DNA of 64,000 nucleotides from Bacteroidia bacterium (GCA_026391215.1 JAPLDX010000090.1:38599-102598), one strand, 5' to 3'; counted from the stretch's first letter, positions 2,272-43,072 are shown. The notes: generated by a model from the sequence alone, not told the origin. Numbers and translations: made by a program.

Positions 2272-2287
2272 TTCGCGTATTTTCCAG

Positions 2288-2956
2288 CTAAGATACTATT
2301 TGGTTCAAATAATTTACTGCTCCCTGCGGGTCGGGAGAATAATAATCTGCTCCTATTTTTTCACAATATTCCTTAGTGACAGGTGCACCACCAACGAGAA
2401 TTTTAATGCCGGATTTTTTTTCACGGATAGCCGTGACGGTTTTCTTCATGTTTTCCATGGTTGTGGTAAGCAAGGCTGAGAGACCTATTACTGCTCCGGG
2501 ATTTTCATCAATGGCTTTAATGAACTTATCTGTCCCTACATCCACTCCAAGGTCTATCACTTCCCATCCTCCTCCCTCGATCATCATAGCCACAAGGTTT
2601 TTACCTATATCGTGCAGGTCACCTGCTACGGTACCGATAATAAATTTCCCTTTCCTCTTGGCTTCTCCTGACTGGAAAAATGGTTTAAGATGTTTCATAG
2701 CGCTGCTCATAGATTTAGCTGCCATTAACATCTGGGGCACATAAATTTCCTTCCTGCTGAATTTGTCCCCGACAATTGCCATTGCAGGAATCAACGCCTT
2801 TTCAAGAATATCACCAGGCTTCATTCCATCGTCGATGGCCTTCCTTGTCAGTTCATCGGCTCCATCCTGGCCTTTCATATCTGGTGGATAAGGAGATGCT
2901 TTATCTATTTTACCAAATTCAACACAACTGGAAATCTTACTTAAAATATCATCCAT
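2288..2956 (-). CDS. Corrinoid (B12)-binding methyltransferase subunit (MtbC/MtaC-like)
   Basis: GTVAGDLHDIGKNLVAMMIEGGGWEVIDLGVDV (DxHxxG B12-binding motif) and GLSALLTTTMENMK, with N-terminal helical cap domain. Confidence 0.92.
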   Translation of the reverse strand: MDDILSKISSCVEFGKIDKASPYPPDMKGQDGADELTRKAIDDGMKPGDILEKALIPAMAIVGDKFSRKEIYVPQMLMAAKSMSSAMKHLKPFFQSGEAKRKGKFIIGTVAGDLHDIGKNLVAMMIEGGGWEVIDLGVDVGTDKFIKAIDENPGAVIGLSALLTTTMENMKKTVTAIREKKSGIKILVGGAPVTKEYCEKIGADYYSPDPQGAVNYLNQIVS

Positions 2957-3145
2957 AGATTATCTGTATTTGAAAAAGACAAAATTATGATAATAGATCA
3001 GTGTTTACTTTGATTCTGTATCAAATTTAGTAATTAATTTAATTTTGCAACCGATTGCAATTATTTTTTTAAGATTTTTATACTGTAAGTTGATTATCTT
3101 TATTACAATAGCATATATTTTACAAAAGGGTAAATTCTGTTATAT

Positions 3146-4669: not shown

Positions 4670-4743
4670 ACAGCAGATAATCATATATTGAATAAAAACT
4701 TCGTGAATATAAAAAAAGAATTTACTTTGCTTCGGGTAAACTA

Positions 4744-5466
4744 TTGCTAATGATATTCTCAGGTCTCTATACAATTCTTACAGTACCCGTTTACGGAATA
4801 CTATATGTCTTTACTGCATTAGGGGTCCTTATGGCCATGTTTTTATCGATAATAAATGCCAAAAGACCGGTATTCTTCCTGTCACGGATATGGGCCAAAT
4901 CGGTATTTCTCCTTATGGGAAAATCCATACATGTCACCGGCAGGGAGAATATAAATAAAAAAGATAAATACATACTGATAGCAAATCATGCCAGCCTTTT
5001 TGATATAGTGGCAATTATGTCAGTTTACCCTGAGGTTTCATGGTTCGGACATGAACGTCTTTTAAAGGTACCGGTATTAAGCAGTTTCCTGAAAATGACA
5101 GATTATGTTCCATTCAGGGATCCAACGGTCACAAACACACGCCATATGCTTGAACAGCTGATGGATAGAGCAAACAACAGGTCGGTGGCTTTGTTCCCGG
5201 AAGGCACAAGAACTACAAGTGGCAAGATCAATCCATTTTTCAGAGGCTTTATTTACTTATTCCGGTCCAGGGAAATAGGCCTATTGCCTGTCACTCTAAA
5301 TGGTTTTTATGATTTCAAGCCAAAAACAAGGTTCTACATCAATTTCGGGAAAAGGCTTGAAGTGATAATCCATAAACCTATACCAAGGGAAGATCTTATA
5401 GATAAAGATGACAACGAGATAGTTGAAACAGTTAAAACTGTAATAGAATCAGCATATCATAAATGA
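4744..5466 (+). CDS. 1-acyl-sn-glycerol-3-phosphate acyltransferase (PlsC family)
   Basis: NHASLFDIVAIM (HX4D motif) and LFPEGTRTTSGKINPFFRGF. Confidence 0.9.
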   Translation: MLMIFSGLYTILTVPVYGILYVFTALGVLMAMFLSIINAKRPVFFLSRIWAKSVFLLMGKSIHVTGRENINKKDKYILIANHASLFDIVAIMSVYPEVSWFGHERLLKVPVLSSFLKMTDYVPFRDPTVTNTRHMLEQLMDRANNRSVALFPEGTRTTSGKINPFFRGFIYLFRSREIGLLPVTLNGFYDFKPKTRFYINFGKRLEVIIHKPIPREDLIDKDDNEIVETVKTVIESAYHK

Positions 5467-10598: not shown

Positions 10599-13111
10599 TC
10601 TATAATAAAGTCTTTGACAGTAATCTCACCAAAGGTTACATCGAGGAAAGGCTTGCCATTTTTCATTCCGGCATTTCCAAAACCTGTGGCTGTTGAAATA
10701 AATGAAGTATAATCACCTGTTCCCGAATTTAAATACATTACCTGATCGACTGCATCGTACCTGATCCCTGAAAGAGCCTGGAGCATTGCATAGCTCGATA
10801 GCGCTCTTGCATACCAGTTACCGCATTCGTACTCATTGAAAGGATTCCGGATCCTTCCGTCATACCTGTCGCGGGCTATCCTTACTATTTCCAGTCCTTT
10901 TTCCGATTCGCCCATCATCATAAGATGAGAGGCTACCTGGTACTCAATACCTGTCCACACTTCATCACTGTAAACGAAGGGAAGTGACAACTTTCCTCCC
11001 TTTGGCCAACTGCAAAGCAACAGTCCTCCCTCATTCCCAAGTGCATATGAAGGGCGCTGAGGATTTGAATGATCTGAAAGATCCCTGCGTAAATTATATT
11101 TATATACTGATTTCAGGTGACTTGCCACTTTAAAGGAATCGACAACATCACTAAGGCCGCATACCTCCCCTATCCATGCACCCAGGATACCATCAGAAAG
11201 ACATCCTGTGCCATACTGATATTTTGGACCTTCCTTCTGAAGTAGTGCCCTGGCTTCTTCTGAATAATCCGACGACCATGATCCTTCAGAAGCTTTTACA
11301 GGATCCGGAGAACTTAGTCCCTCCCATTTTATCTTCTGTATGAAATATTCACCATCAAACAGTTCCGATTCTAACGTCTTCCTCCCTTTTGAATAAAGTA
11401 ATTCATATTTTGAAACATCAGCACCAAGGTATTTGCCCATTTCCGCTATAGCTTTCAGGGCTCCCAGGTAGAAGCTTGTACACATCCCATCCGGTCCCCA
11501 GAATTCTATGTCGTAAGTGTTATGGTGTGGTTCTTCCAGTGTTCCGGTAGAACGGGGATCCCATGTCTTAATGCAATAATCCATGCTTTCTACCACTTTT
11601 GGATACAGCTTTTTAAGCCATTCGGCATTGCCGCTGATATGCCAGTCGCGGTATACTTTCATGATCCCTCCCAGCTGACCATCTGATGCAGCATAAAAAG
11701 TAGTTGCGACAGGACGGATCGGCAAAGCTGATCTGAATGTCTGATGTCCTTCCATATCCTGGCTCGGGAGAAATTCCGTCTCACGCAGGGTTCTCTCAAG
11801 TGAAGGGAAAAGATGAGGGATTGCCTGGGCATAATTCCATACATGGGTGCAGGAGCCGGCACAACAGCCTGAATTATCACCGCATCCCTCCCAGTTCCAT
11901 AATTTTCCGTCACGCTGACGAAGAATCGTCGGTGATTTTAAAATTGTAAGGTTAGCAGCTACTGCTTCAATCACTTCAGGAGGATGGGTTGTATTGTAAA
12001 ATGCATTGCAGAACAATTCGGATTTCCCCAGAAGATCACTGTAATTTGTTTTCCAGTAATCTGCAACTTCATTTATCCCGGGAAATTTCGCTGAATACCA
12101 TGGTTTATAATAGGGATCCTTGCAGGTACAATCAGTGTCGGTGCACTCCTCATCATCGGGCTCCTTTGAATCCTGGCCGTACTTCATATTAGTGTTTGGT
12201 ACATACCAGGCCATCATGATCCTTATTACTTTTGACTCTCCCGGATTTAATGATAATGGCACATAAAGTGATGCACCCGGCGCATCATCCTCAACAGGCG
12301 ATGTGTTCCTGGTTTCTCCTCTCAGAATTGTATTCCACGTCATGGTCATCGGGTCCCACCATCCTCCCCTGAACCAGCAATGGTCCACAATAGCTTCAGG
12401 CTCTGTGGTATATATTGCAAAATCGCCCTGCTTCTCCGGATTTTCCTTGTTCCCCTCCTCAGACAGGATGAATCCTCCTGCAATGGGTTTTACTGAAGCT
12501 TTCCCGCCGGATTGGCTCATAAAATTTTTGGTATTGTAAGAAAATACACATTCCAGAACTGAACTGCCGGTGTTTTTAAATGAATATTCCAGTGCTCCCA
12601 CTGGCAAGCTTGAATTATCGGCATCAGTAGGAATAAAAGGGCTCCATCCTTTTATCTGGACATTGAGCGGAATATCATTGTCATTCAGCTCAATGCCGGC
12701 AAATGGGAATCTTGCATGGAATGTCGCATTTTTAAATCTTGGAAGTCCATAGGTTGCTCCTGCGGAACCGTTCCCCGAACCAGGTTGTCCAAAGCGCTTC
12801 CAGTCCGGGACCTGGCCTTCAAGGACTTTTGTACCGTTTTCAATTCCCTTGACCGAAATGGCTGCGAATATGCACGGCTCATTGAAAACCTCAGGCTTGT
12901 TTCTTACCGACATGTGAGAAATTGCACCGGTCCCTTCCAGACAAAACATTCCTGCTCCCAATCCTCCGATCGGGAAAGCTATCCTGTTGAGGTATTCTCC
13001 TGAATATGTTCCGTTATACTCATGTTTCGGATTATCGATTGTACCTTTTTTTTCAGCACAGGAGGTTAATAGCAATCCTCCGGATACTAATAGTACTAAG
13101 ATCTTATTCAT
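10595..13111 (-). CDS. GH116 family glycoside hydrolase (beta-glucosidase/glucosylceramidase-like), lipoprotein
   Basis: Signal with lipobox LLTSCAE; NRIAFPIGGLGAGMFCLEGTGAISHMSVRNKPE; HNTYDIEFWGPDGMCTSFYLGALKA and DEVWTGIEYQVASHLM, typical of GH116. Confidence 0.88.
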   Translation of the reverse strand: MNKILVLLVSGGLLLTSCAEKKGTIDNPKHEYNGTYSGEYLNRIAFPIGGLGAGMFCLEGTGAISHMSVRNKPEVFNEPCIFAAISVKGIENGTKVLEGQVPDWKRFGQPGSGNGSAGATYGLPRFKNATFHARFPFAGIELNDNDIPLNVQIKGWSPFIPTDADNSSLPVGALEYSFKNTGSSVLECVFSYNTKNFMSQSGGKASVKPIAGGFILSEEGNKENPEKQGDFAIYTTEPEAIVDHCWFRGGWWDPMTMTWNTILRGETRNTSPVEDDAPGASLYVPLSLNPGESKVIRIMMAWYVPNTNMKYGQDSKEPDDEECTDTDCTCKDPYYKPWYSAKFPGINEVADYWKTNYSDLLGKSELFCNAFYNTTHPPEVIEAVAANLTILKSPTILRQRDGKLWNWEGCGDNSGCCAGSCTHVWNYAQAIPHLFPSLERTLRETEFLPSQDMEGHQTFRSALPIRPVATTFYAASDGQLGGIMKVYRDWHISGNAEWLKKLYPKVVESMDYCIKTWDPRSTGTLEEPHHNTYDIEFWGPDGMCTSFYLGALKAIAEMGKYLGADVSKYELLYSKGRKTLESELFDGEYFIQKIKWEGLSSPDPVKASEGSWSSDYSEEARALLQKEGPKYQYGTGCLSDGILGAWIGEVCGLSDVVDSFKVASHLKSVYKYNLRRDLSDHSNPQRPSYALGNEGGLLLCSWPKGGKLSLPFVYSDEVWTGIEYQVASHLMMMGESEKGLEIVRIARDRYDGRIRNPFNEYECGNWYARALSSYAMLQALSGIRYDAVDQVMYLNSGTGDYTSFISTATGFGNAGMKNGKPFLDVTFGEITVKDFIID

Positions 13112-26491: not shown

Positions 26492-27925
26492 ATGGAAAGT
26501 GGCTATAAAGGCTTTAAAGGAACATATTTTTACATCGCTGTTGCAGGGATCTTCCTGATAATCATTAGCCCTTCATTGCTTTCTGAGGGTATGTTTATGG
26601 ATGGCATGATGTACGCTACAATGTCGAAGAATCTGGCAAACGGACTGGGGACTTTCTGGCAATCACATTTTTCGGAAATAATATTCCCTTCATTTATTAA
26701 CCATCCGCCCCTGGCAATAGGACTGGAAAGCACTTTTTTCAGAATTTTTGGCGACAGCAGGTTTGTTGAGCGGTTTTATTCTCTTTTTGCAATACTGCTG
26801 ACAGGTTTAATAATAGTAAAAATCTGGAAATCGCTGGGCAGGAAATCATCTACAGGCTGGCTGCCCCTGCTTTTCTGGATCGCAATGCCTTCAGTCACGT
26901 GGGCTTCCGTAAATAATATGCTGGAAAATACAATGGGGATATTTATATGTCTTTCAGTCTTATTTTTCATTAAAAGCCAGAAAAACAACAGGATACTTTT
27001 TCTCTTCCTGAGTGGATTCATGCTGTCTTTTGGTTTTCTGACAAAGGGTTTTGTTACATTTTTTCCTCTTTCTTTCCCATTCTTCTATTGGTTGTTTACA
27101 AGGAAATGCACATTCTGGTCTGTAGTAAGCGATACACTATTAATTCTGTTTTCATCAGCACTCCCGTTGGTCCTGTTGTTTTTATTTATCCCGGGATACA
27201 GAGAAACCCTGCCTGACTATCTTACTGTAACATTTGGACTTATTGCTAATGAAGCAACAAAAGCCTCACGGTTTTATATTGTCTTCAGGCTTTTAATGGA
27301 ATTGCTGCCTCTTTTGGGGATGATCATGATATTCCTACTCTATTGCCGGAAAAAGAAACTTCCTTTAAACCAGTTAAGTAGTAACCTTCATCTTGCCTCT
27401 TCGTTTCTTTGTCTGGGATTATCCGGTGTTCTTCCAATAATGATAACCAGGGTTCAAAGCGGGTACTACCTGCTGACAAGTTTGCCTTTCTTTGCTATTT
27501 CGCTGAGCCTGATGATCATACCACATGTTGAAACATTGATGGAAAGGATAAATTCTAATCCATTTTACTATAAGCTTTTAACAATCTCAGGAATAACTTT
27601 GCTCTCAACAGGAATAATCCTGTCTGTCTGTTTTTCGGGACATATAAACAGGAATAAGGATATGATTAAAGATATGAGAGTTATTACAGCTGAGCTGCCA
27701 GAAGGCATCACTGTAAATATTTTGCCCGACATGTGGACCGATTGGAATCTTCATACTTGCTATGCCAGGTATAAGAACATAAGTCTTGACCCTGATTTGA
27801 ATAACAAGCACGGATATCTGCTCATAAGGAATTCATTAAATTCCGACACTCTTAATAATGGATTTGAGAAAATTGAACTTAAAACAACAGAATTTGAATT
27901 ATTCAGAAGAAAGATGCCTGAATAG
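26492..27925 (+). CDS. Integral-membrane glycosyltransferase, GT39/ArnT-like
   Basis: N-terminal FMDGMMYATMSKNLANGLGTFW, HPPLAIGLESTFFRIFGDSRFVERF, multiple TM helices. Confidence 0.8.
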   Translation: MESGYKGFKGTYFYIAVAGIFLIIISPSLLSEGMFMDGMMYATMSKNLANGLGTFWQSHFSEIIFPSFINHPPLAIGLESTFFRIFGDSRFVERFYSLFAILLTGLIIVKIWKSLGRKSSTGWLPLLFWIAMPSVTWASVNNMLENTMGIFICLSVLFFIKSQKNNRILFLFLSGFMLSFGFLTKGFVTFFPLSFPFFYWLFTRKCTFWSVVSDTLLILFSSALPLVLLFLFIPGYRETLPDYLTVTFGLIANEATKASRFYIVFRLLMELLPLLGMIMIFLLYCRKKKLPLNQLSSNLHLASSFLCLGLSGVLPIMITRVQSGYYLLTSLPFFAISLSLMIIPHVETLMERINSNPFYYKLLTISGITLLSTGIILSVCFSGHINRNKDMIKDMRVITAELPEGITVNILPDMWTDWNLHTCYARYKNISLDPDLNNKHGYLLIRNSLNSDTLNNGFEKIELKTTEFELFRRKMPE

Positions 27926-27948
27926 CAAAATAAACTAATCATATTGAT

Positions 27949-28914
27949 ATGAGGATACTTATAACAGGAGTTGCTGGGTTCATAGGATCTAATCTTGCCG
28001 GTAAATTGCTTGAGGCAGGATATGAAGTGATTGGCGTTGATAATTTCAGCTTTGGATTTGAGAGGAATATCAGCAGATTCAGGAAATTAAATAAGTTTAC
28101 TTTTATTGAAGGGGATATCAGGGATTCGAACTGTCTTAAAAATCATAAATCAGATGTGATTGTACATCTTGCTTCCCAGAAGATCCCGCGATATACAAAC
28201 GCATTCCGGACATTGGATGATAATAATAATACCCTTCAGAAAATTGTTCAAAAATGTATCTCTGATAAATCCAGGATAATCTATGCATCCACTTCCGATG
28301 TGTATGGCAAGAATACGAAACTTCCATTTTCTGAAACTTCGGACCTTGTTCTCGGACCTACAACAATAAAGAGGTGGGCATATGCAATATCGAAAATCTA
28401 TGGAGAACAGTATATTATTGCGAGCCATGAGGAATTTGGATTGGATTATACAATTGGGAGATTTTTCGGAGCCTACGGTCCAAACCAGAATCCAACATGG
28501 TGGGGTGGTCCTCAGTCTGTTTTCATAAACAAAGCCCTTCAGAAAGAAGAGATGGAAATTCATGGCGACGGCAGTCAGACCAGGACATTCACATATGTTG
28601 AAGATACTGTTAACGCTGTCACCCGATTTATTTCTGATCCAAAATCTGATAACCAGATCTTTAATGTCGGGGCCACTCAAGAATGTGAGATTTCGATCAT
28701 CGATCTGGCCAGACTTATATGGAAGCAAATAAATGGAGATAAATTAAATCCCCGGTTAAAGTTTATTCCCTATTCTGATTTTGGCAAATATGAAGATGTA
28801 ATGGCAAGGATCCCTGATATAAGCAAATTAAAGGAGTTTTTTAATTTTGAGCCTGCCTGGTCACTGGAAGAAGGCTTAAAGAAAACAATCGCCTGGCAGC
28901 GTGAAATAAAATGA
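27949..28914 (+). CDS. NAD-dependent epimerase/dehydratase (extended SDR)
   Basis: ITGVAGFIGSNLAGKLLEAGYEVIGVDNFSFG, STSDVYGKN, YAISKIYGEQ. Confidence 0.92.
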   Translation: MRILITGVAGFIGSNLAGKLLEAGYEVIGVDNFSFGFERNISRFRKLNKFTFIEGDIRDSNCLKNHKSDVIVHLASQKIPRYTNAFRTLDDNNNTLQKIVQKCISDKSRIIYASTSDVYGKNTKLPFSETSDLVLGPTTIKRWAYAISKIYGEQYIIASHEEFGLDYTIGRFFGAYGPNQNPTWWGGPQSVFINKALQKEEMEIHGDGSQTRTFTYVEDTVNAVTRFISDPKSDNQIFNVGATQECEISIIDLARLIWKQINGDKLNPRLKFIPYSDFGKYEDVMARIPDISKLKEFFNFEPAWSLEEGLKKTIAWQREIK

Positions 28915-29645
28915 ATCTGTATTTCCTTATACCGGTATTCAACGAATCTGTTAATCTGGATTTATTATCAGAAAGCCTTCAAAAGGTGCTTCCGGAGAAA
29001 AAAAAATTCTACCTCTTTGTTGATGATAAATCCACAGATGACACCATCAGGAAAATTCACGCCTTATTTCAATCAAAACCTTATCATATTATTGAAAAAG
29101 AAAAAAACCAGGGGCCGGGTGATTCTTTTAATCTTGGATTTGAATGGATACTGGAACATTCTGAGGATGACAGGGATCTGATTATAACTCTTGAAGCGGA
29201 CAATACTTCCGATATTGATCTTTTACCAACTATGATTAGTATTTCAGGATTAAACTACAGTCTGGTTCTTGCATCTGTCTATGTACAGGGCGGTGGATTT
29301 GAAAAGTCTTCGTTTTTAAGGAAGCTCATATCCTTTTTTGCCAATATTTTTCTACGTCTTATCTTTAATATCAAAGTTCAGACTTTAAGCTCTTTTTACA
29401 GGGTATATCAGATAAGCTTAATTAAAAGGATCAGGCAAAATTACACTTCAATAATTTCAGAAAAAGGATTTGTCTGCATGTTTGAGATACTATTAAAAGC
29501 AATCCGGTCAGATGCAAGTATTATCGAAGTACCCATGATACTTAAATCTCAGAAACGAAAGGATAAATCCAAAATGAGGATCCTTAAGACTATGGGTCAG
29601 TATATCGGATATGTATTTAAGCTGGGATTCAAAGGTATCAGTTAG
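28911..29645 (+). CDS. GT2 glycosyltransferase (dolichol-phosphate mannosyltransferase-like)
   Basis: LIPVFNESVNLDLL, FVDDKSTDDTIRKI, NQGPGDSFNLGFEWIL. Confidence 0.85.
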   Translation: MNLYFLIPVFNESVNLDLLSESLQKVLPEKKKFYLFVDDKSTDDTIRKIHALFQSKPYHIIEKEKNQGPGDSFNLGFEWILEHSEDDRDLIITLEADNTSDIDLLPTMISISGLNYSLVLASVYVQGGGFEKSSFLRKLISFFANIFLRLIFNIKVQTLSSFYRVYQISLIKRIRQNYTSIISEKGFVCMFEILLKAIRSDASIIEVPMILKSQKRKDKSKMRILKTMGQYIGYVFKLGFKGIS

Positions 29646-29780: not shown

Positions 29781-29808
29781 TTGAATTAATTATAATCACC
29801 TAATTTTG
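29781..29808 (+). promoter_or_regulatory. Putative Bacteroidota-type promoter upstream of the 29856 cassette
   Basis: taattttg (29801-29808) fits TAnnTTTG, with ttg at 29781-29783 upstream as a possible -33 element. Confidence 0.45.
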
Positions 29809-29855
29809 AATAATAAAACAGGATTATATTTCACAGATTTTAATATATCCATTTT

Positions 29856-30230
29856 ATGTTGAAAGATAATTTAAGTATTTATATTATCTCAGAAGATCTT
29901 GTATTTATCAGGTTAATCGAACTATTATTCAATAATAAATTACCTGAACCTCAAATTGAAAGAATATCCTCATTTATTGAGCTGAAAAAAAAGCAGTTCA
30001 ATCGACCTCCAGATATAATTATACTGGATGATTTTATAATCGGAGCAGCCAGCGTTGAAGTAATAACATTCTTAAGGTTTAATAGAAGACTGGAATGTCC
30101 AGTTTATTTTTTCTGTGAAAGTGTTTCGGATCTTGTAATTAAAGCAATAGAGAGAGGAGCTAATCATTACTATACAAAACCATTTAAGCCCCTGTCAGTT
30201 GTTGATGAAATTGTCGACAACCTGAAATAA
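29856..30230 (+). CDS. Stand-alone response-regulator receiver-like protein
   Basis: YIISEDLVFIRLIELLF (acidic pocket), PDIIILDDFI (phospho-acceptor Asp), YYTKPFKPLSVVDEI (conserved Lys-Pro). Confidence 0.75.
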   Translation: MLKDNLSIYIISEDLVFIRLIELLFNNKLPEPQIERISSFIELKKKQFNRPPDIIILDDFIIGAASVEVITFLRFNRRLECPVYFFCESVSDLVIKAIERGANHYYTKPFKPLSVVDEIVDNLK

Positions 30231-30233
30231 TAA

Positions 30234-31496
30234 ATGAAAAAACTATCGCCCTTGAAACAAAAATTTTACATAATTACCACCGTTCAGCTTTTATTGACAC
30301 TTAATCTTTTTTCGCAGGTTAATGCGGATTCTTTATTCAGGATCGCTATTGAGCAATCCCGAAAAAATGATTATGAAGGCGCGCTTCTGAATGCAAAACG
30401 AGTATTAGGTATCAATCCTTCAAGGTGTGATGTTTATGTTTTTATTGCCAATGTTTTTGCATGGCAAAAGAATAGCGACTCGTCAAAACACTACATAAAT
30501 AAAGCCTATAATTTAAATCCTCGCAGTTCTGAATTATATGATGCCTGGCTAAATGTATTATTATGGAACGGAGAATATGATGAACTTCTGATAACGACAG
30601 ATATTGCAGTTAGCAATGGCTATAATAATGATTACAATATCCTGATCAAGAGACTGATTGCTTATAAATACCTTGGAGAATACTCAAAAGCTTCAGAGCT
30701 GTTCGCGGACAGTGAAAATAAGATTTTACTGGAGTTAGTCCAGATTAAGAATCTGTATCGCGAAATACTATTACAACAAAAACAGAACATTCTGACAGCC
30801 TATTATTCTCTTGATTATCTTCCTGAGAATAATCCTGCGGCGCAGCACATGGCCTTTATTGATTATGCATTTAAGATAAAACAAAACAGCCTGCTTCTAA
30901 GATTGAATTATGCCAACAGATTTACCAAAAATGACCTGCAGGTGGAATCAGATTATTATCATATGTTAAAAAACAGCAGGTATTTCTATTTAAACTATGG
31001 TTATTCACTATATTATGATCTATTCCCAAAACACAGAGCAGGGCTGGAATACTATTCCTCGCTGAAGAAAGGTTTTGAGGCTTCGCTTGGAGGCAGATAT
31101 TTGTATTTTCCTGATTCTCATATAGGTATAATAACCGGTTCTGTAGCAAAGTACATAAATTCAATCTGGATCTCCCTAAGACCTTATTACGCTTTTGCTA
31201 AACCGGGAAATTCTGTCGCACTGATAGCTGATGTCCGCATATACGGGAAGCTTCCCCTCTCCTATTGGAACCTGGAACTGGGTTATGGTAATTCTCCGGA
31301 TGAAAGATTCATACTAAATCAGACGGATAATTATTTCCAGCTGGACTCTTACCGTTTCAAGCTGGGCAAAAACCTGTTGATAGGAAAGGCCGACGAATTA
31401 AAGATATCAGCAGGTTATGCATATGAGGAATTTGTAACTGATGATTACATTAACCGGTATATCATGCAAATAATTTACAGACACAGGATAAAATGA
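30234..31496 (+). CDS. TPR protein with C-terminal YaiO-type outer-membrane beta-barrel
   Basis: Signal peptide; TPR-like N-terminus (DYEGALLNAKRVLGINPSRCDVYVFIANVFAWQ); YaiO-like FYLNYGYSLYYDLFPKHRAGLEYYSSLKKGFEASLGGRYLYFPDSHIGIITGSVAKYINSIWISLRPYYAF. Confidence 0.85.
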   Translation: MKKLSPLKQKFYIITTVQLLLTLNLFSQVNADSLFRIAIEQSRKNDYEGALLNAKRVLGINPSRCDVYVFIANVFAWQKNSDSSKHYINKAYNLNPRSSELYDAWLNVLLWNGEYDELLITTDIAVSNGYNNDYNILIKRLIAYKYLGEYSKASELFADSENKILLELVQIKNLYREILLQQKQNILTAYYSLDYLPENNPAAQHMAFIDYAFKIKQNSLLLRLNYANRFTKNDLQVESDYYHMLKNSRYFYLNYGYSLYYDLFPKHRAGLEYYSSLKKGFEASLGGRYLYFPDSHIGIITGSVAKYINSIWISLRPYYAFAKPGNSVALIADVRIYGKLPLSYWNLELGYGNSPDERFILNQTDNYFQLDSYRFKLGKNLLIGKADELKISAGYAYEEFVTDDYINRYIMQIIYRHRIK

Positions 31497-32722
31497 AATA
31501 TGTGATTATAAATAATCTGCGTTATTACCTTCCCAGAATAATTATTCTTCTCATCTGTTTATTCTTGTTTTATTTTGTCTATCATCTTTCCTTTTATCAT
31601 ATACACATAGGGGGAAACAATATCTATAATCATTTATACCCTTTCGAAAGTAAGACAGAATGGTGGTTTTACGTTCTTGTGTATATTATTATCATTTCAG
31701 TCTTAAGTGTATTTGTGCTGCTTTTATTGAGTTTCTATTTCGATTATAAAGGCAGCAGGTCTGGGGCGATAAACAGAAAGTATGAATTGATATTTTCTGA
31801 AAAAATTATCGGGTACATATATTCTGACCGTTTAAAAGAATCCGGCTTGACAAAGGAACCTGGCAGTTTCTTAAAGAAGAAATTAAGGAACAAACTGGTG
31901 ATTGTGTCTTTTTTCTCCGTAATTATCAGGATCCAGGAGATTATTGATGAAGACCTGAGCGATAAATTCAAATTACTATTCGGGCAACTTGGGCTTGAAA
32001 AGAAAATCAAATGGTTCCTTCAATCCAGAAAAATGAGCGAAAAGATCATTGCACTTCAGATAATTTCCTGTCTGAAAATAAAGGGATACAGGAAGATAAT
32101 CGTAGAATACGCAGGAAGTAGAAATTATGTATTACGTACAGTTGCCATGTCAACGCTCATAAGGCTGTCAAAGACGGATCATCTTAATGTAATGTTGGAG
32201 CATGAGCATTATATTTCAAAGATGGATATCAATGTAATCATTAATGAAGTTGAAAAGAATAGGAAAGCCGATATTGAATACCTAAGTCTGATTAGATCCA
32301 AATCCCCTCGTATTATTGCTATCGGGCTACTGCTGATTCAGGTCAGGAATAAAGCCGAATACAAGGAAATGATCAGGCCACTGCTTGAAATCAATGATGC
32401 ATTCCTTCATGAGGTAGCATGGGAAGCTTTCGCCTTCTTTGCAGGAACGGACGAGGATTTAAAATTTATGATTGAAAGATTCGATAGCGAGACTTTCAAT
32501 TATAAGAAACTGATATTAAAGTCTTTAACCTCTTTTAAACAAAATACAGAAATATCTGATTTTGTAGACAGGGTAATAAAAAATGAGAGCATTCTATTAA
32601 AGATTGAAGCACTCACGATCCTTTTTGCAAACAATGTGGAGCGTTTCCTTTCTTATAAAGGATCCGACGACAGGAATATTGCTGCTGCATATAATGAACT
32701 GGTTGATTTGAACTTAGGCTAA
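31493..32722 (+). CDS. Membrane-anchored HEAT-repeat protein
   Basis: Two N-terminal TM segments; repeated helical pairs such as EKIIALQIISCLKIKGYRKIIVEYAGSRNYVLRTVAMSTLIRLS. Confidence 0.7.
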   Translation: MKYVIINNLRYYLPRIIILLICLFLFYFVYHLSFYHIHIGGNNIYNHLYPFESKTEWWFYVLVYIIIISVLSVFVLLLLSFYFDYKGSRSGAINRKYELIFSEKIIGYIYSDRLKESGLTKEPGSFLKKKLRNKLVIVSFFSVIIRIQEIIDEDLSDKFKLLFGQLGLEKKIKWFLQSRKMSEKIIALQIISCLKIKGYRKIIVEYAGSRNYVLRTVAMSTLIRLSKTDHLNVMLEHEHYISKMDINVIINEVEKNRKADIEYLSLIRSKSPRIIAIGLLLIQVRNKAEYKEMIRPLLEINDAFLHEVAWEAFAFFAGTDEDLKFMIERFDSETFNYKKLILKSLTSFKQNTEISDFVDRVIKNESILLKIEALTILFANNVERFLSYKGSDDRNIAAAYNELVDLNLG

Positions 32723-32727
32723 ATGAT

Positions 32728-34170
32728 ATGAATATGTCGGATATCGTCAATTATGTTTTTAATTTTTTCTTCCTGGTTTATGCCCTGGCACTGTATTTTT
32801 CATATATTTTTATCGGCATTTTGTCGGCATTTGAACTAAGATTCTACGAAAATAAAAACAGATATTTTAATTATAAGTCTATACTTGGTTATAAGAAACT
32901 CCCAACCATCTCAATTATCGCCCCTGCATATAATGAGGAAAAAACTATAGTTCAAAATATCCGCAGCCTGCTTTCACTTTATTACCCGGAGGTGGAAGTG
33001 ATCATTGTAAACGATGGCAGTAAAGACAATACTCTGCAGACAATTATTGAGCATTATGAACTGAATAAGGTTGAAATGGCTGTTGAGAATAAAGTCAAAT
33101 CAGCCCGGATTCGAGGCATCTATAAATCATTTAACAGCGCATATTCTAATCTTATTGTTCTTGATAAGGAGAATGGAGGAAAGGCTGACGCTCTGAATGC
33201 AGGCATTAATGTGTCGAGGAGCGATCTGTTCCTTACAATTGATGTTGATTGTATTATTGAACAGGATGCCATTTTACGGATGGTAAAACCCTTTCTGGAA
33301 GAAGAAGGTGGAAGAAAAGTAATTGCATCGGGAGGAGTAGTGCGCATTGCCAACTCCTGTGAAATAAAGGATGGTATAATTCTAAAAGTCAACTACCCTA
33401 AAAATATTTGGGCTAAGTTCCAGGTTCTGGAATACTTCAGGGCATTTACCCTGGGAAGAATGGCATGGAGCAAAGCAAACGGATTACTGATCATATCGGG
33501 AGCTTTTGGCCTATTTGACAGGGATATTGTCGTTTCCGCCGGAGGTTATGATGCCAGTAGTGTGGGCGAAGATCTGGAACTGGTGGTACGCATGCGCAGA
33601 TACATGCATGAAAATAAAATAAACAAATATAAAGTAGCCTTTATTCCTGATCCCTTATGCTGGACTGAAGTACCATCGACTTTTAAAATACTTTTCAGAC
33701 AGCGCAACAGGTGGACAAGAGGGGCAATAGATACTATCAGAAAACACAGGAAGATGTTCTTAAATCCAAAATATGGCCGGATCGGAATGATAAGTTTTCC
33801 TTACTGGGTCTTGTTTGAATGGCTGGCTCCGATACTGGAATTTATAGGATTTATTTATTTCATAATAATGGTCGTTTTGGGAAGAATTGATGTAGAAGTT
33901 TTCTTAATAGTAATTTTATTCGTTTTTTCTTTCTCACTGGCATTCTCTACATTTGCATTATTCTATGAATCATATATTTTCAAAAAATACAAAGGATATA
34001 AATTTATTTTTCAGGCTATCTTTGTCGCAATGGCAGAAATGATTTTTTATCACCCGCTGAATGTTCTCTTTTCCCTTTCCGGAAATTATGATTTCTTTAT
34101 TAAAAAAAATACAAAGGGATGGGGTGTTATGACCCGCACCGCTTTTGACAGTAAATCCAAAAAGCCGTGA
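32728..34170 (+). CDS. Processive GT2 glycosyltransferase (PgaC/IcaA/cellulose-synthase-like)
   Basis: APAYNEEKTIVQNIRSLL, VNDGSKDNT, LTIDVDCIIEQDA, GEDLELVVRMRR, RQRNRWTRG (QxxRW) plus C-terminal TM helices. Confidence 0.9.
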   Translation: MNMSDIVNYVFNFFFLVYALALYFSYIFIGILSAFELRFYENKNRYFNYKSILGYKKLPTISIIAPAYNEEKTIVQNIRSLLSLYYPEVEVIIVNDGSKDNTLQTIIEHYELNKVEMAVENKVKSARIRGIYKSFNSAYSNLIVLDKENGGKADALNAGINVSRSDLFLTIDVDCIIEQDAILRMVKPFLEEEGGRKVIASGGVVRIANSCEIKDGIILKVNYPKNIWAKFQVLEYFRAFTLGRMAWSKANGLLIISGAFGLFDRDIVVSAGGYDASSVGEDLELVVRMRRYMHENKINKYKVAFIPDPLCWTEVPSTFKILFRQRNRWTRGAIDTIRKHRKMFLNPKYGRIGMISFPYWVLFEWLAPILEFIGFIYFIIMVVLGRIDVEVFLIVILFVFSFSLAFSTFALFYESYIFKKYKGYKFIFQAIFVAMAEMIFYHPLNVLFSLSGNYDFFIKKNTKGWGVMTRTAFDSKSKKP

Positions 34171-34607
34171 AAAAAGATCCCAATCTGAAAATAAGTGCTG
34201 AAGATTATTTATTTAACATCATGATTGTTGATGAACAACATCAACGATTCATCGGAATCTATAATAATATCATAAAATTATCAGAAGATAAACCGAACGT
34301 TACTAATGATAAAATATGTCGGGTCCTTAATGAATTGTCAGAGTACCTGAAATATCATTTCAAGACCGAAGAGCGACTTATGATGCTGGCAGATTACCCG
34401 GATATTGATAAGCATATAAAAGAGCATATTTTTTTTATAAACAAAATAGATGAGTTCATTTTAGCCAATAAATATAAGAACCCTGTTCTGCTGGATAATA
34501 TGCTTGCTTTCTCCAGAAAGTGGTTCTTATCTCACATAATGCAGACCGACGCAAAATACATAGATATTTTAAAGGCTTATATCGACCATCATCCTGATAC
34601 AAAATAG
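34167..34607 (+). CDS. Bacteriohemerythrin-like protein
   Basis: VDEQHQRFIGIYNNI, YHFKTEERLM, HIKEHIFFINKI, WFLSHIMQTDAKY: hemerythrin metal-ligand spacing; GTG start overlapping the GT2 stop. Confidence 0.88.
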   Translation: MKKDPNLKISAEDYLFNIMIVDEQHQRFIGIYNNIIKLSEDKPNVTNDKICRVLNELSEYLKYHFKTEERLMMLADYPDIDKHIKEHIFFINKIDEFILANKYKNPVLLDNMLAFSRKWFLSHIMQTDAKYIDILKAYIDHHPDTK

Positions 34608-34820
34608 CTGAATAAAGAATAATTGATTGTGAAAGTAAGTGCGAATCTCACCATGCACCCTTTGGGTATTATATGCAAGCGAGGCCTTGAGAGGTAAATA
34701 CCACAGCAATAATTTATGACTGAATTTTATTTATATTTGAGTTAAGGTAGGATATCTGAAGAAATCAGGCTTTTTACAAAAATTCAATTCTCATTTCAGC
34801 AACCATTAAAACCGAAAAAT

Positions 34821-36428
34821 GTGGAAAAACTAGTCTTAAAAGAAAAAATCGGGTATGCACTTGGAGACGGTGCAGCAAATATCGCCTGGCGCGGTGTGGC
34901 TACTTTCTTATTTATATTTTATACCGACGTTTTTGGAATAAATCCTGCCGCCGTGGGAGTACTCATGTTAATTGCCCGATTCGGCGATGGGATTGTCGAC
35001 ATTATAATGGGTATTATCTGTGACAGGACAAATTCTAAATATGGCAAATTCCGTCCATGGATATTATGGACAGCCGTTCCTTTGGGAATAACATTATCGC
35101 TGCTATTTACATCTCCTAACCTGGGTCCGACAGGGAAAATAGTTTATGCCTATGCTACCTATCTGACATTTTTCATTATGTACACCGCGAATAATATACC
35201 ATATGGCGCATTGATGGCTGTTATGACCGGCGACGATAAAGAACGCACAAGCCTGGGATCATATCGTATGGTTGGCGCATTTACAGGAGGCATGGTGGTT
35301 CAGGGGGCCTTGCTGTTTTTAGTCGTGCATTTTGGCAATATCAATCCAACTATTGATCTGCAAAAACTTGATGCACAAAAATATGAAGTAACAGTATCGA
35401 CCAACAAGGATGTCAAAAATGTAAATATCAAAACCAAAGATGGAATAGCGATGTTTACCTGGGCTGATCCAGGGATGGCCGACAGTATAAATGTCCCCAC
35501 TCAAGGTAAAAGCTTTTCGATGGAAGCGCAAAAAGAATACTCTTTCATCGTTTCCGGTGAAAAAAACCTCGAGACCAAAAACATAACCATAATTGACCAG
35601 AAGAAAGGCTATAGTAATTCCATTTATCTTTTATCAATATTTCTGTCTCTGTTCCTGATAGTGACTTTCGCTACGACAAAGGAACGAGTGCAACCTCCCA
35701 AAGAACAAAAAACAAATTTGGGTAAGGACCTGAAAGATCTGATCAAAAACAAGCCCTGGATCATTCTCCTTATCATCGGATTGCTGTTCAATGTCTACAA
35801 TTCGATCAAACAAGGCATTGTGGTAATCTATTTCACCCATTACCTGCACAACCAGTTATTGGCTGCATCTTATATGGTTGGATTAATGCTGGCTTCAATT
35901 GCAGGCGCCATGATAACATCTCCCCTGGGCAAACGCCTGGGCAAACGGAATCTGTTCATTTATGCTCTTATCTTTTCCGGTATTGTAAATGCACTGCTTG
36001 CTTTCTGCAATGCGAATAATATAACAGGAATCTTCATAATCGGTATAATTTCGGAGTTTGGAGCTGCAATATTCCCGACTCTCTTCTTTGCAATGCTTGG
36101 TGATGCTGCCGATTACTCGGAATTCAAGAATGGACGAAGAGCTACAGGACTTGTTTATTCCGCCGGCTCTTTTGCAACCAAATTCGGAGGAGGCATAGCC
36201 GGTGCAATTATTGGATTTGTGCTTGCAGCATTTAATTACAATGGGCAGGATACTATTTCTATACAAGGCGCAGTTCCGGGCATAATAATGCTCATGAGTT
36301 GGATACCGACAATTATTGCATTGATCGCAGCCGGTGTGATGACACTCTATCCATTGAACCAAAAGAGAATGGATGAAATTACAATTGAACTTAACAATAG
36401 AAGAGCCAAAGCTCAACTAAGTCAGTAA
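34821..36428 (+). CDS. GPH-family (MFS-type) sugar:cation symporter with a soluble insertion
   Basis: GTG start; KEKIGYALGDGAANIAWRGVATFLFIFYTDVFGI, MGIICDRTNSKYGKFRPWILW, YGALMAVMTGDDKERTSLGSYR. About 95 aa polar segment between predicted TM5 and TM6. Confidence 0.9.
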   Translation: MEKLVLKEKIGYALGDGAANIAWRGVATFLFIFYTDVFGINPAAVGVLMLIARFGDGIVDIIMGIICDRTNSKYGKFRPWILWTAVPLGITLSLLFTSPNLGPTGKIVYAYATYLTFFIMYTANNIPYGALMAVMTGDDKERTSLGSYRMVGAFTGGMVVQGALLFLVVHFGNINPTIDLQKLDAQKYEVTVSTNKDVKNVNIKTKDGIAMFTWADPGMADSINVPTQGKSFSMEAQKEYSFIVSGEKNLETKNITIIDQKKGYSNSIYLLSIFLSLFLIVTFATTKERVQPPKEQKTNLGKDLKDLIKNKPWIILLIIGLLFNVYNSIKQGIVVIYFTHYLHNQLLAASYMVGLMLASIAGAMITSPLGKRLGKRNLFIYALIFSGIVNALLAFCNANNITGIFIIGIISEFGAAIFPTLFFAMLGDAADYSEFKNGRRATGLVYSAGSFATKFGGGIAGAIIGFVLAAFNYNGQDTISIQGAVPGIIMLMSWIPTIIALIAAGVMTLYPLNQKRMDEITIELNNRRAKAQLSQ

Positions 36429-36457
36429 TAATCAGGACAAAATAAAAAATTAAAAAA

Positions 36458-38895
36458 ATGAAATACGGTTACTTTGATGATAAAAAAAGGGAATATGTAA
36501 TTACTAATCCGCGTACTCCATGGCCCTGGATCAATTACCTGGGAACTGAAGACTTTTTCTCTCTCATATCAAACTCCGCCGGCGGTTATTCTTTTTGTAA
36601 GGATGCCAAATTCCGCCGGATCACACGCTACAGGTACAATAATGTCCCGATGGACAGCGGAGGAAAATACTTCTATTTAAAGGATGGCGACACTATCTGG
36701 TCACCAGGATGGAAACCCTGCAAGACCGGGCTCGACAGTTATGAATGCCGCCATGGGATGAACTATACAGTTATAAAAGGTGAAAAAAACGAGGTTTCAG
36801 CAAGCGTTCTGTATTTTGTACCCCTGAAAACCTGGGCTGAGGTGCAGAAACTCACACTTACAAATAATTCAAAAACAACCAAAAAGCTTAAGGTTTTTTC
36901 GTTTGTCGAATGGTGCCTGTGGAACGCTGCCAGCGATATGGAAAACTTCCAGAGAAATTTTTCTACAGGGGAAGTGGAAATCCAGGGTTCAGTCATCTAT
37001 CATAAGACCGAATATAAAGAAAGGCGCAATCATTATGCCTTCTACTCTGTAAATGTGCCTGTTCAGGGATTTGATACTGACCGTGAGTCTTTCTTTGGCT
37101 TATATAATGGTTTTGATGAACCTCAGGTTGTCTCTGAAGGCAAACCTCATAACTCAGAAGCCCACGGCTGGTCTCCGATTGCTTCACACTATATTGAAGT
37201 GGAACTTAAGCCCGGAGAATCAAAAGATTTTATATTCGTATTAGGTTATGTTGAAAATAAAGAGGATGAGAAATGGGAATCCAAAAATATAATCAACAAG
37301 AAGAAGGCAAAAGATACAATAGCAAAGTTTGATACTGCCGCTAAAGTTGATGCTGCGCTGGCCGATCTGCGAAAATACTGGGATAATCTGCTGAGCATTT
37401 ACACAGTTAAATCAGGTGACGACAAACTTGATCGCATGGTAAACATCTGGAATCAGTACCAGTGCATGATTACTTTCTGCTTCTCCCGTTCGACTTCATT
37501 CTTTGAATCAGGAATAGGCCGCGGCATAGGCTTCCGTGACTCCAATCAGGATCTTATAGGTTTTGTTCATCAGATTCCTGAAAGAGCAAGGGAGAGGATC
37601 ATTGACATAGCTTCAACCCAGTTCCCTGATGGCGGATGTTACCATCAGTACCAGCCACTTACAAAAAGAGGAAATAATGACATTGGCGGAGGTTTTAATG
37701 ATGATCCTTTGTGGCTCATCCTTGGAACTATAAGTTATATAAAGGAAACCGGTGATTTTGGCATCCTTGATGAAATGGTTCCTTTTGACAATGATGCATC
37801 AGTTGCCCGTACATTGTTTGATCATTTGACTGTTTCATTCGATCATGTTGTAAATAATCTTGGGCCGCATGGACTTCCTCTTTCCGGACGTGCCGACTGG
37901 AACGACTGCCTGAATCTGAATTGCTTCTCAAATGATCCGGATGAATCATTCCAGACCACTGAGAATAAAACAGAAGGATCTAAAGCTGAATCTGTTATGA
38001 TAGCAGGTTTGTTTGTAGTTTATGGCCGCGATTATGTTGATCTCTGCAAAAAGCTGGGAAAGAATGATGAGGCTTTGCGTGGTCAGAACAATGTGGATGC
38101 TATGGTCAGAACAATTAAGGAAAGTGGCTGGGACGGGGAATGGTTTATCCGTGCTTATGATTTTTTCGGTCATAAAGTCGGTAGCAATGAAAATCAGGAA
38201 GGCAAGATCTTTATTGAATCTCAGGGAATGTGTACCATGGCAGGGATTGGAAAGGAAGAAGGTCTTTGCACAAAAGCGCTGAATGCAGTAAAAGAACGTC
38301 TTGATTGTCAGCATGGCATCGTATTGAATAACCCTGCATTCACCAGGTATTATATTGAATACGGCGAAATATCATCATATCCTGCAGGCTACAAAGAAAA
38401 TGAAGTGTTTTCTGCCACAATAATCCCTGGATCATGATTGGCGAAACTGTTGTTGGCAATGGTGATCGTGCATGGGAGTATTACAGGAAGATATGTCCTT
38501 CGTACCTTGAAGAAATAAGCGATCTGCATAAGACCGAACCTTATGTATATGCTCAGATGATTGCAGGGAAAGATGCTTTCAAGCCCGGTGAAGCTAAGAA
38601 TTCCTGGCTGACAGGTACCGCCTCGTGGAATTTCTATGCTATCACGCAGTATATATTAGGTATTCGCCCTGATTTCGATGGACTTTTAATTGATCCGTGC
38701 ATTCCTTCCTCGTGGAAAGGATTTGAGGCAACCCGGAAATTCAGAGGTGCCACTTATCTCATTGAAGTCGTAAATCCTGATGGCAAATCCAAGGGAGTAC
38801 AGAAAGTAACAGTTGATGGCAAACTGCATAAATCAAATCTGATACCTGTTTTTGGAGATGGTAAAGAACATAAAGTGAATATTATCCTTGGATAG
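36458..38895 (+). pseudogene. GH94 family phosphorylase (cellobiose/chitobiose phosphorylase-like) split into two ORFs by a frameshift near 38401
   Basis: ORF 36458-38437 carries GH94 motifs ([59 protein letters not shown]); ORF 38434-38895 continues with the GH94 C-terminus ([29 protein letters not shown] in its frame). Confidence 0.85.
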
Positions 38896-38914
38896 ATGAT
38901 CATTTAGTAAAAAG

Positions 38915-40848: not shown

Positions 40849-41331
40849 ATGAAACGGATACTTACAATCTTAATCTTCCTTCTTGTCGGTGCAACATCTT
40901 TTGCCCAGAAAGATAAAAACACAGACAAGGAGAAAACGCAGGATAACAAGATCACTCCAGGTGCTTCTGGAGTTAAAAGAAGCATTGGATACAAGTTTAG
41001 CTCAATATCTGAGGACAAGGATCCGGGTGATGGAATATTCAGGTATAACAACGTGAATGTAACTTCTGTGTCCTGGATCTATATTGATAAAAATGACATA
41101 AAAGGAGAGGATCAGACCAACTGGTACAAGACCTGGAATGAAACTACGGGAGCCACTGGCAGAGGGCAGCTGGTTCTTGTGGCATTAAGGGGAGATAATG
41201 TAAACGTTTTCAATATAACTGATGTTTTCATAGATGGCAACGGGTACTGGAAGTTCCCGGTGAAGTATGTGTCAGGCAAATTGCCTGTAAATGATTCAGT
41301 ATATTTCAGTCACTGCGGTTCCGGCTGCTGA
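40849..41331 (+). CDS. Secreted domain, likely N-terminal part of the downstream repeat/barrel protein (frameshifted)
   Basis: Signal peptide MKRILTILIFLLVGATSFAQ; the frame terminates just inside the repeat region (HCGSGC*), while the next frame continues as SVTAVPAAEVVTEVA. Confidence 0.65.
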   Translation: MKRILTILIFLLVGATSFAQKDKNTDKEKTQDNKITPGASGVKRSIGYKFSSISEDKDPGDGIFRYNNVNVTSVSWIYIDKNDIKGEDQTNWYKTWNETTGATGRGQLVLVALRGDNVNVFNITDVFIDGNGYWKFPVKYVSGKLPVNDSVYFSHCGSGC

Positions 41332-43072
41332 AGTAGTTACAGAAGTTGCTGTTGTTGCAGAGGCTCCGATAGTTGAGGTAGTTACAGAACCTCCTGTAGT
41401 TGAGGTAGTCACTGCGGTTCCGGCTGCTGAAGTAGTTACAGAAGTTGCAGTAGTCACAGAGGCTCCGGTAGTTGAAGTGGTCACTGAGGTTCCTGCTGCT
41501 GAAGTAGTTGCAGAAGTTGCAGTAGTCACAGAGGCTCCGGTAGTTGAAGTGGTCACTGAGGTTCCGGCTGCTGAAGTAGTTGCAGAAGTTGCAGTAGTCA
41601 CAGAGGCTCCGGTAGTTGAAGTGGTCACTGAAGTTCCGGCTGCGGAAGAAGTTGTTGTAATTGCGGAAGCGCCTGTTGTCGAAGCGGCTCCTGCTGTTCC
41701 TGCAACGGAAGAAGTTGTAGTAATTGCGGAAGCGCCTGTTGTCGAAGCGGCTCCTGCTGTTCCTGCAGCGGAAGAAGTTGTAGTAGCTGCAGAAGTCCTT
41801 GTTGTCGAAGCGGCTCCTGCTGTTCCTGCAACGGAAGAAGTTGTTGTAATTGCGGAAGCGCCTGTTGTTGAAGCGGCTCCTGCTGTTCCTGCAGCGGAAG
41901 AAGTTGTAGTAGCTGCGGAAGCCCCGGTTGTTGAGGCGGCTCCTGCTGTTCCTGCAGCAGAAGAAGTTGTAGTAGCTGCAGAAGCCCCTGTTGTTGAAGC
42001 AGCTCCTGCTGTTCCTGCAGCGGAAGAAGTTGTTGTAATTGAGGAAGCGCCTGTTGTTGAAGCGGCTCCTGCTGTTCCTGCAACGGAAGAAGTTGTTGTA
42101 ATTGCGGAAGCGCCTGTTGTCGAAGCGGCTCCTGCTGTTCCTGCAGCAGAAGAAATTGTGGTAATTGCGGAAGCCCCAGTTGTTGAGGCGGCTCCTGCTG
42201 TTCCTGCCGCAGAAGAAGTTGTAGTAGCAGAAGCTCCTGTTGTTGAAGCAGTTCCTGAGGTTCCTGCAATTGAAAAGGTTGAAGAAGTTGCAGTAGTAAC
42301 GGAAGCTCCTGTCACAAAACCTGCTCCTGACACTAAAGAGACAACAGTAGCCCCTGGTCCGCCAAGAATTACAGAAACAAAACCTGCACAGGAAACAAAA
42401 GAAACGACAGTGGCTCAGGGTCCTCCGAGAGTTACTGAGACTAAACCTGTCCAGGGAACTCAAGGGACTACAGTCTCCCAGGGTACTCAGAGAGCTCCTG
42501 TGACTCAACCTGCCCGGGAGACAAGGGTAAATGAAGCTCCTGTAACCCAGAATTACTATGGATCGACGAGTGTCAGCCGCAGAAAATGTTATCGCGGTAT
42601 AATTGAGATGGGTTATGCTTTGCGTGTCAGTGAATACGGAATGAACAACTTCAGGTTTAACTTCATTAATGGTTTTAATATAGGTCATACCTCAATAGGA
42701 CTTGGAATTGGTGTCCGAAAATATTATGACAAACCAGCAAATCATCCGGACTGGCATCTTGTCTCAAGCGATGTCCAGATACCGGTTTTCCTTGATATAA
42801 GAACGACATTTTCATCAAAGAAGGTCACACCATACTTAGGAATTGGAATTGGTAATTCAACAGGCTTTGATACTGATACTGTGAAAAACAATCCTGAAGG
42901 GTTATACTTTCATGCTACAGGCGGGATCTGGTTTAATATCTCCGACAGATTTGCAGTGTTTGGTGGCTTTGCATATGAATTGCAAAGACTGGAATATGCC
43001 AAATTTTCTGATGAGATCCCTTATAAGAAATTTACCAACTCAATAAGTCTCAATATCGGCATTGCATTTTAG
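41291..43072 (+). CDS. V/P/A/E tandem-repeat protein with C-terminal outer-membrane beta-barrel-like domain
   Basis: Repeats VPAAEVVTEVAVVTEAPVVEVVTE and VPAAEEVVVIAEAPVVEAAPA, Thr/Pro linker, then CYRGIIEMGYALRVSEYGMNNFRFNFINGFNIGHTSIGLGIGVRKYY ... SISLNIGIAF. Confidence 0.8.
   Translation: MIQYISVTAVPAAEVVTEVAVVAEAPIVEVVTEPPVVEVVTAVPAAEVVTEVAVVTEAPVVEVVTEVPAAEVVAEVAVVTEAPVVEVVTEVPAAEVVAEVAVVTEAPVVEVVTEVPAAEEVVVIAEAPVVEAAPAVPATEEVVVIAEAPVVEAAPAVPAAEEVVVAAEVLVVEAAPAVPATEEVVVIAEAPVVEAAPAVPAAEEVVVAAEAPVVEAAPAVPAAEEVVVAAEAPVVEAAPAVPAAEEVVVIEEAPVVEAAPAVPATEEVVVIAEAPVVEAAPAVPAAEEIVVIAEAPVVEAAPAVPAAEEVVVAEAPVVEAVPEVPAIEKVEEVAVVTEAPVTKPAPDTKETTVAPGPPRITETKPAQETKETTVAQGPPRVTETKPVQGTQGTTVSQGTQRAPVTQPARETRVNEAPVTQNYYGSTSVSRRKCYRGIIEMGYALRVSEYGMNNFRFNFINGFNIGHTSIGLGIGVRKYYDKPANHPDWHLVSSDVQIPVFLDIRTTFSSKKVTPYLGIGIGNSTGFDTDTVKNNPEGLYFHATGGIWFNISDRFAVFGGFAYELQRLEYAKFSDEIPYKKFTNSISLNIGIAF
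41318..42290 (+). repeat. Coding tandem-repeat array: 72-nt units then 63-nt units
   Basis: About 24-aa units at the 5' end and about 21-aa units (VPA[AT]EEVVVIAEAPVVEAAPA) afterwards; many near-identical at DNA level. Confidence 0.9.

Follow-up and report, generated by a model that had tools for sequence, protein, structure and literature searches.

The cassette described here lies on the plus strand of a 64,000-nt window (the whole stretch of DNA that was analysed), where an ORF check confirmed five co-directional ORFs at 29856–34607. In gene order, they encode a single-domain receiver (RR; 29856–30230, 124 aa), a predicted TPR-YaiO outer-membrane exporter (30234–31496, 420 aa), a membrane-anchored HEAT-repeat solenoid protein (31493–32722, 409 aa), a family 2 glycosyltransferase that is a processive synthase by its motifs (GT2; 32728–34170, 480 aa), and a single-domain bacteriohemerythrin (HHE) with a GTG start (34167–34607, 146 aa). 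The five genes named in the initial annotation were all found in place. Its description of 3-bp gaps and 4-bp overlaps also holds for all junctions but one: a 3-bp gap, a 4-bp overlap, a gap of 5 bp instead of 3 between the HEAT and GT2 genes, and a 4-bp overlap. The exporter, the GT2 and the hemerythrin passed the Pfam cut-offs for YaiO (1.9e-46), Glyco_tranf_2_3 (1.7e-24) and Hemerythrin (1.8e-14), respectively.

A TAnnTTTG-like promoter had been proposed ahead of the cassette. The site in question, TAATTTTG at 29801–29808, has no matching TTTG upstream, and with 54 TAnnTTTG matches versus 62 expected the motif is no more frequent than by chance; we rejected it as a promoter. Further upstream, at 27949–29645, lies a cluster of the lipid-sugar type, with an epimerase and a DPM-like GT2. 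The genes just downstream of the cassette, a GPH/MFS symporter and a GH94 gene, are 87–91% identical in same-genus genomes. There, no cassette genes were found beside this pair and the homology starts only after the cassette (34719–34809), so the pair was not counted as part of it. Because the same-genus genomes keep the downstream pair without an adjoining cassette, this comparison indicates that the cassette was probably acquired horizontally in this lineage. The GT2 loci of same-genus genomes fall into a clade distant from that of the window in the GT2 tree.

The receiver lacks an output domain and scored below the Pfam threshold (6.6e-5; 23.5 bits, cut-off 30.2 bits). It had been called phosphorylatable, in favor of which D58 is invariant across 15 relatives and K108 mostly retained in the alignment, but a check of the CheY-like residues found the usual Thr/Ser replaced and the acidic pair to be S-E. 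Because the receiver is degenerate in this way, it may bind unphosphorylated. In 14 of the 19 nearest relatives, a receiver occupies the same slot within the full five-gene order. No kinase, Hpt or phosphotransferase gene is linked to the cassette in the window.

The second protein consists of N-terminal TPRs (about residues 31–120) and a C-terminal YaiO β-barrel (about residues 185–420). It belongs to the YaiO family according to both PF19413 (158.6 bits, cut-off 23.9) and TIGR04390 (8.1e-39; 133.9 bits, cut-off 32), and the PF19413 and TPR matches together predict an outer-membrane β-barrel with periplasmic TPRs. The host genome contains only one YaiO gene and only one GT2 of the cassette's family.

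In the GT2, we located DVD at residues 172–174, VGED at 279–282 and QRNRW at 325–329, flanked by membrane helices at both termini. The DVD and QxxRW motifs of the initial annotation are hence present, and D96, D172, D174, E281, D282, Q325, R328 and W329 are invariant among 37 relatives. With the motifs D, DxD, ED and QxxRW and its membrane helices, the protein has the general features of a synthase-dependent system. The top fold matches of its structural model are hyaluronan synthases, followed by chitin synthase and BcsA, at TM scores of 0.5–0.65; complexes of BcsA with a pEtN-transferase are also among them. From motifs and fold match, we infer that the GT2 polymerises processively.

The window HEAT protein has no significant Pfam match. 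Its AlphaFold model (pLDDT 86) displays two N-terminal hydrophobic helices (about residues 8–37 and 55–86), consistent with hydropathy, followed by an α-solenoid that matched alphaRep, armadillo and PP2A-A folds in a fold search, and proteins in the same slot at other loci score with PF13646 (HEAT_2); model, fold search and homologs together identify it as a HEAT-repeat protein. Its sequence evolves fast, with 12–34% identity to relatives. The suggestion that this protein replaces a co-polymerase is not supported by these results. Hyaluronan synthases are not known to need a co-polymerase. Because the GT2 resembles these enzymes and the HEAT repeats, following two membrane helices, are probably cytosolic, the better reading appears to be that the HEAT protein serves as a scaffold or adaptor for the receiver.

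The gene-neighborhood check proposed in the initial annotation found the five-gene order conserved: receiver, TPR/YaiO, HEAT, GT2 and hemerythrin follow each other in 15 of the 20 loci of one GT2 clade, two of the exceptions being contig ends, and the refutation foreseen there, a lack of conservation, thus fails. A HEAT-based search of 98 relatives led to 19 loci, all with the order YaiO-HEAT-GT2 and mostly with a receiver directly upstream; no hemerythrin was detected in these 19. We then used a GT2 profile to scan GTDB genomes, which yielded at least 594 pattern matches and at least 585 relatives. Among the best 80 of these relatives plus the window locus, the gene immediately before GT2 encodes HEAT in 80 of 81 loci, a receiver lies within six genes in 74 and YaiO in 69, and Hpt-domain or hybrid-kinase genes are found near 30. 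To offset the bias of best-scoring loci, a second sample of 40 loci, 39 of them scorable, was taken from an evenly drawn set of the phylum, the Bacteroidota, in which 95 of 396 genomes possess the GT2 family. Here, HEAT lies directly upstream in 35 of 39 loci, and a receiver is present in 27 and YaiO in 23. In two of the four exceptions for HEAT (L161 and L167), a membrane-anchored repeat protein below the profile threshold was recognized by eye beside GT2. Because YaiO is absent nearby in the remaining 16 of 39 evenly drawn loci, another exporter may serve some of them.

Beyond the phylum, annotated plasmids carry related arrangements. In Mesorhizobium ciceri, the order is histidine kinase-RR-RR-YaiO-HEAT-GT2-Hpt, and in Erythrobacter aureus RR-TPR-HEAT-GT2. 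The archaeon Haloarcula halophila has RR-HEAT-GT2 and Paenibacillus cellulosilyticus HEAT-GT2; neither has an outer membrane and both loci are without YaiO, as would be predicted from a role in outer-membrane export. The GT2s of these four organisms scored 438–502 bits with the family profile, versus 37 for E. coli YaiP. By gene content, the core conserved across bacteria and archaea is receiver-HEAT-GT2, a wider unit than the five-gene cassette.

Around this core, further genes recur. In the same set of 81 loci (the best 80 of at least 585 relatives plus the window), 38 contain a gene for a membrane protein of LTA-synthase/sulfatase fold, 33 one for an anchored protein of ~400 amino acids without Pfam match (in the following called X400), and 13 one for a secreted protein of ~850 amino acids with a T9SS tail. 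In five loci (L103, L115, L128, L133 and L139), the C-terminus of GT2 is fused with the LTA-synthase/sulfatase-fold protein, which recalls the BcsA-pEtN-transferase complexes among the fold matches. X400 and the ~850-aa protein are fused into a single Paenibacillus protein adjoining HEAT-GT2. One locus (L053) has a polysaccharide deacetylase gene. In the host genome, an X400 homolog is located on a different contig, and no homolog of the main domain of the ~850-aa protein was found.

The hemerythrin scored 87.7 bits with NF033749 (cut-off 84) and possesses all seven di-iron ligands (H25, H64, E68, H83, H87, H123 and D128; five His, one Glu, one Asp). The bacteriohemerythrin of the initial annotation is therefore real, but its weight there was too high: on the GT2 tree, the loci with hemerythrin group into a single supported set (19 of 20 rows), with one gain and one loss. 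This clade, which includes the window locus, spans the families Marinifilaceae, Prolixibacteraceae, Salinivirgaceae, Marinilabiliaceae and Paludibacteraceae. Since it is confined to one clade, we regard hemerythrin as an accessory and rejected it as a core component. Its part within this clade allows two readings. By analogy, it probably supplies an O2/redox (or NO) input: bacterial hemerythrin domains are often redox sensors, biofilm control included, and Bhr-DGC of V. cholerae is a precedent for coupling hemerythrin to biofilm (PMC9388753). It is quite possible, on the other hand, that the protein is merely co-transcribed and stores or scavenges O2, NO or iron, protecting the synthase or an anaerobic host, for it consists of one domain with no output module, and most members have lost or lack it. 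Besides the frequency of sensory hemerythrin domains, its retention tightly adjoining GT2 throughout a clade of several families speaks against this.

Taken together, the invariant GT2 motifs, the TPR-YaiO barrel and the conserved order support the candidate processive synthase/exporter cassette proposed from the window alone. We consider it rather likely that these genes encode a synthase-dependent system for a surface polysaccharide, gated by the receiver via the HEAT scaffold. In such a system, the GT2 would draw on an activated sugar donor in the cytosol for polymerisation, and the chain would pass through the enzyme's own transmembrane channel, the route by which hyaluronan and cellulose synthases extrude theirs. 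In the periplasm, the chain would be taken over by the TPRs of the YaiO protein and then exported through its barrel. Anchored by its N-terminal helices, the HEAT protein would sit beside the synthase with a cytosolic solenoid and act as an adaptor. A phosphorelay would load the lone receiver, which would bind the HEAT protein and thereby switch the synthase. This phosphorelay would be encoded elsewhere in the host genome, while many relatives have Hpt and hybrid-kinase genes beside the receiver. The receiver would hence fill the role that c-di-GMP and PilZ, or PgaD, have in Bcs and Pga systems, and in the clade of the window hemerythrin may add the O2/redox (or NO) input.

Receivers can also act in localisation, and the receiver and HEAT protein might set where the synthase is located, at a pole or septum as for holdfasts, and not its activity. 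We consider this unlikely. HEAT proteins of the same genus have a weak SPOR-like, that is, peptidoglycan-binding, N-terminal domain (18.7 bits, cut-off 21), which would suit such a role, but the domain is absent from the window HEAT protein, and the linkage to kinase and Hpt genes fits a control of activity at least equally well. Still less probable is a non-processive or lipid-linked GT2 that makes a polyprenyl-linked or glycolipid sugar, with YaiO unrelated and the receiver and HEAT protein regulating surface glycosylation. GT2 is a broad fold, and the lipid-sugar-type cluster with its own DPM-like GT2 lies just upstream. However, the QxxRW motif and the C-terminal set of membrane helices are invariant in the cassette GT2, hyaluronan synthases are its top fold matches, and YaiO is linked to it in diderms and missing from the Haloarcula and Paenibacillus loci.

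Returning to the receiver-gated synthase, a broader proposal is more tentative: RR-HEAT-GT2 could be an ancient, unnamed polysaccharide-synthase module that bacteria and archaea share. Its synthase would be controlled post-translationally and without c-di-GMP, by direct action of a phosphorelay via a single-domain receiver bound to a HEAT adaptor, and YaiO exporters, phospho-decorating enzymes and hemerythrin as a gas sensor would have been added by lineage. The best-known bacterial control of biofilm-matrix polysaccharide synthases is c-di-GMP. The initial annotation noted neither PilZ nor a diguanylate cyclase in the cassette, and this extends to the entire host genome, in which, at 99% completeness, GGDEF and PilZ domains gave no match each. 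Control by c-di-GMP is therefore unlikely here. If the proposal is true, it would identify a widespread matrix polymer and its direct switch in a host genome without detectable GGDEF and PilZ; roughly a quarter of the sampled genomes of the phylum contain this module, which also occurs in other phyla and in archaea. Two questions would become testable: which cargo the YaiO barrel carries, and how matrix synthesis is controlled in bacteria without c-di-GMP.

Searching the open-access literature, we found no named or described system that matches the cassette, which may be described elsewhere; it apparently represents a widely conserved, undescribed variant of synthase-dependent polysaccharide secretion. 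Using curated cut-offs and profile scores, we rejected the GT2 as a member of the Pga, Bcs, NodC or YaiP families. That the locus is an ordinary one for PNAG (Pga/Ica) or cellulose (Bcs), only divergent in sequence, is very improbable: PgaC_IcaA (TIGR03937) is the best NCBIfam match of the GT2, but its 150 bits are far under the cut-off of 422, CelA reaches 42 of 699 bits, neither a PgaB/IcaB deacetylase nor a PgaD/IcaD subunit was found among the five cassette genes and the two flanking genes scanned, BcsB, PilZ and GGDEF are missing from the cassette, and the HEAT protein and receiver have no counterpart in these systems. At the level of sequence, membership in Pga or Bcs is refuted, in agreement with the initial view that this is not a standard locus of either type.

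Among the systems compared, the E. coli yaiP-yaiX-yaiO-yaiS locus, of putative function, also has YaiO beside a GT2, together with a deacetylase of its own. It differs in lacking HEAT and receiver genes, and YaiP, at 26% identity, scores the above-mentioned 37 bits, compared to 438–826 for the cassette-family members compared. Alongside pga, Xanthomonas has another biofilm operon with a GT2 gene, xagABCD, which is similar by description and on which the elevated biofilm of an rpfG mutant depends (PMC3609779); the published description gives no evidence of a HEAT protein or receiver in it. Class I hyaluronan synthases (Chlorella virus HAS, Xenopus HAS1) are alike in their processive GT2 fold, with membrane helices at each terminus, and in the predicted exit of the polymer through the GT2 itself. 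Their identity is about 14–18%, and they work without HEAT, receiver or outer-membrane partner. The PNAG systems PgaABCD/IcaADBC resemble the cassette in combining a GT2 synthase with a TPR-barrel outer-membrane exporter, PgaA, whereas the cassette has a YaiO barrel in place of the PgaA barrel and no PgaB, PgaD or c-di-GMP. Cellulose BcsABCG has the same synthase-dependent logic and a TPR-barrel exporter, and BcsG is comparable to the predicted membrane phospho-transferase of alkaline phosphatase fold that adjoins or is fused to GT2 in relatives. Instead of BcsB, PilZ and GGDEF, the cassette contains the receiver and the HEAT protein.

Directly downstream of the cassette lies a pair of genes for a GPH symporter and a GH94 enzyme (window 34719–38900), which shares 82–85% DNA identity across the genus. 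Homology between the window and the same-genus genomes begins immediately 3′ of the cassette, and the pair marks the downstream boundary of the cassette's probable insertion. The coding sequence of the cellobiose-phosphorylase-like GH94 itself falls into two ORFs, one of 659 and one of 153 amino acids, that overlap (window 36458–38437 and 38434–38895). Because the same-genus relatives keep a single open frame of about 814–821 amino acids, the window's copy is frameshifted or misassembled. Farther downstream, an ORF of 593 amino acids (window 41291–43072) is built from numerous Ala/Val/Glu-rich repeats that hardly differ from one another (APVVEAAPAVPAAEEVVV...); its C-terminus, beyond the repeats, is membrane-barrel-like.

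Immediately 5′ of the cassette, a multi-TM gene (GT39-like, by eye), an NAD-dependent epimerase gene and a DPM-like GT2 gene stand in a row (window 26492–29645). These genes possibly constitute a distinct polyprenyl-sugar pathway, and they may also belong to the acquired stretch.

The HEAT protein of the window lacks the periplasmic SPOR-like domain of the genus-type HEAT proteins, found at L028 (4551–6188) and likewise at other same-genus loci, where this domain scores 18.7 bits, under the cut-off of 21. Within the hemerythrin clade of the GT2 tree, L055 is the sole member that has lost the hemerythrin; there, CotH kinase and VTC-domain genes (10717–12807) follow 3′ of the cassette.

The accessory family of ~400 amino acids had no Pfam or NCBIfam match. 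A homologue is encoded in the host's own genome, away from the cassette (L170, contig C85, 7279–8433). At the Paenibacillus locus L126, this family and the ~850-amino-acid secreted family are joined in one chain (1695–4796), which adjoins HEAT-GT2. The GT2 is naturally fused, in relatives L103, L115, L128, L133 and L139, to an LTA-synthase/sulfatase-fold domain, and these natural fusions suggest that the polymer is phospho-decorated.
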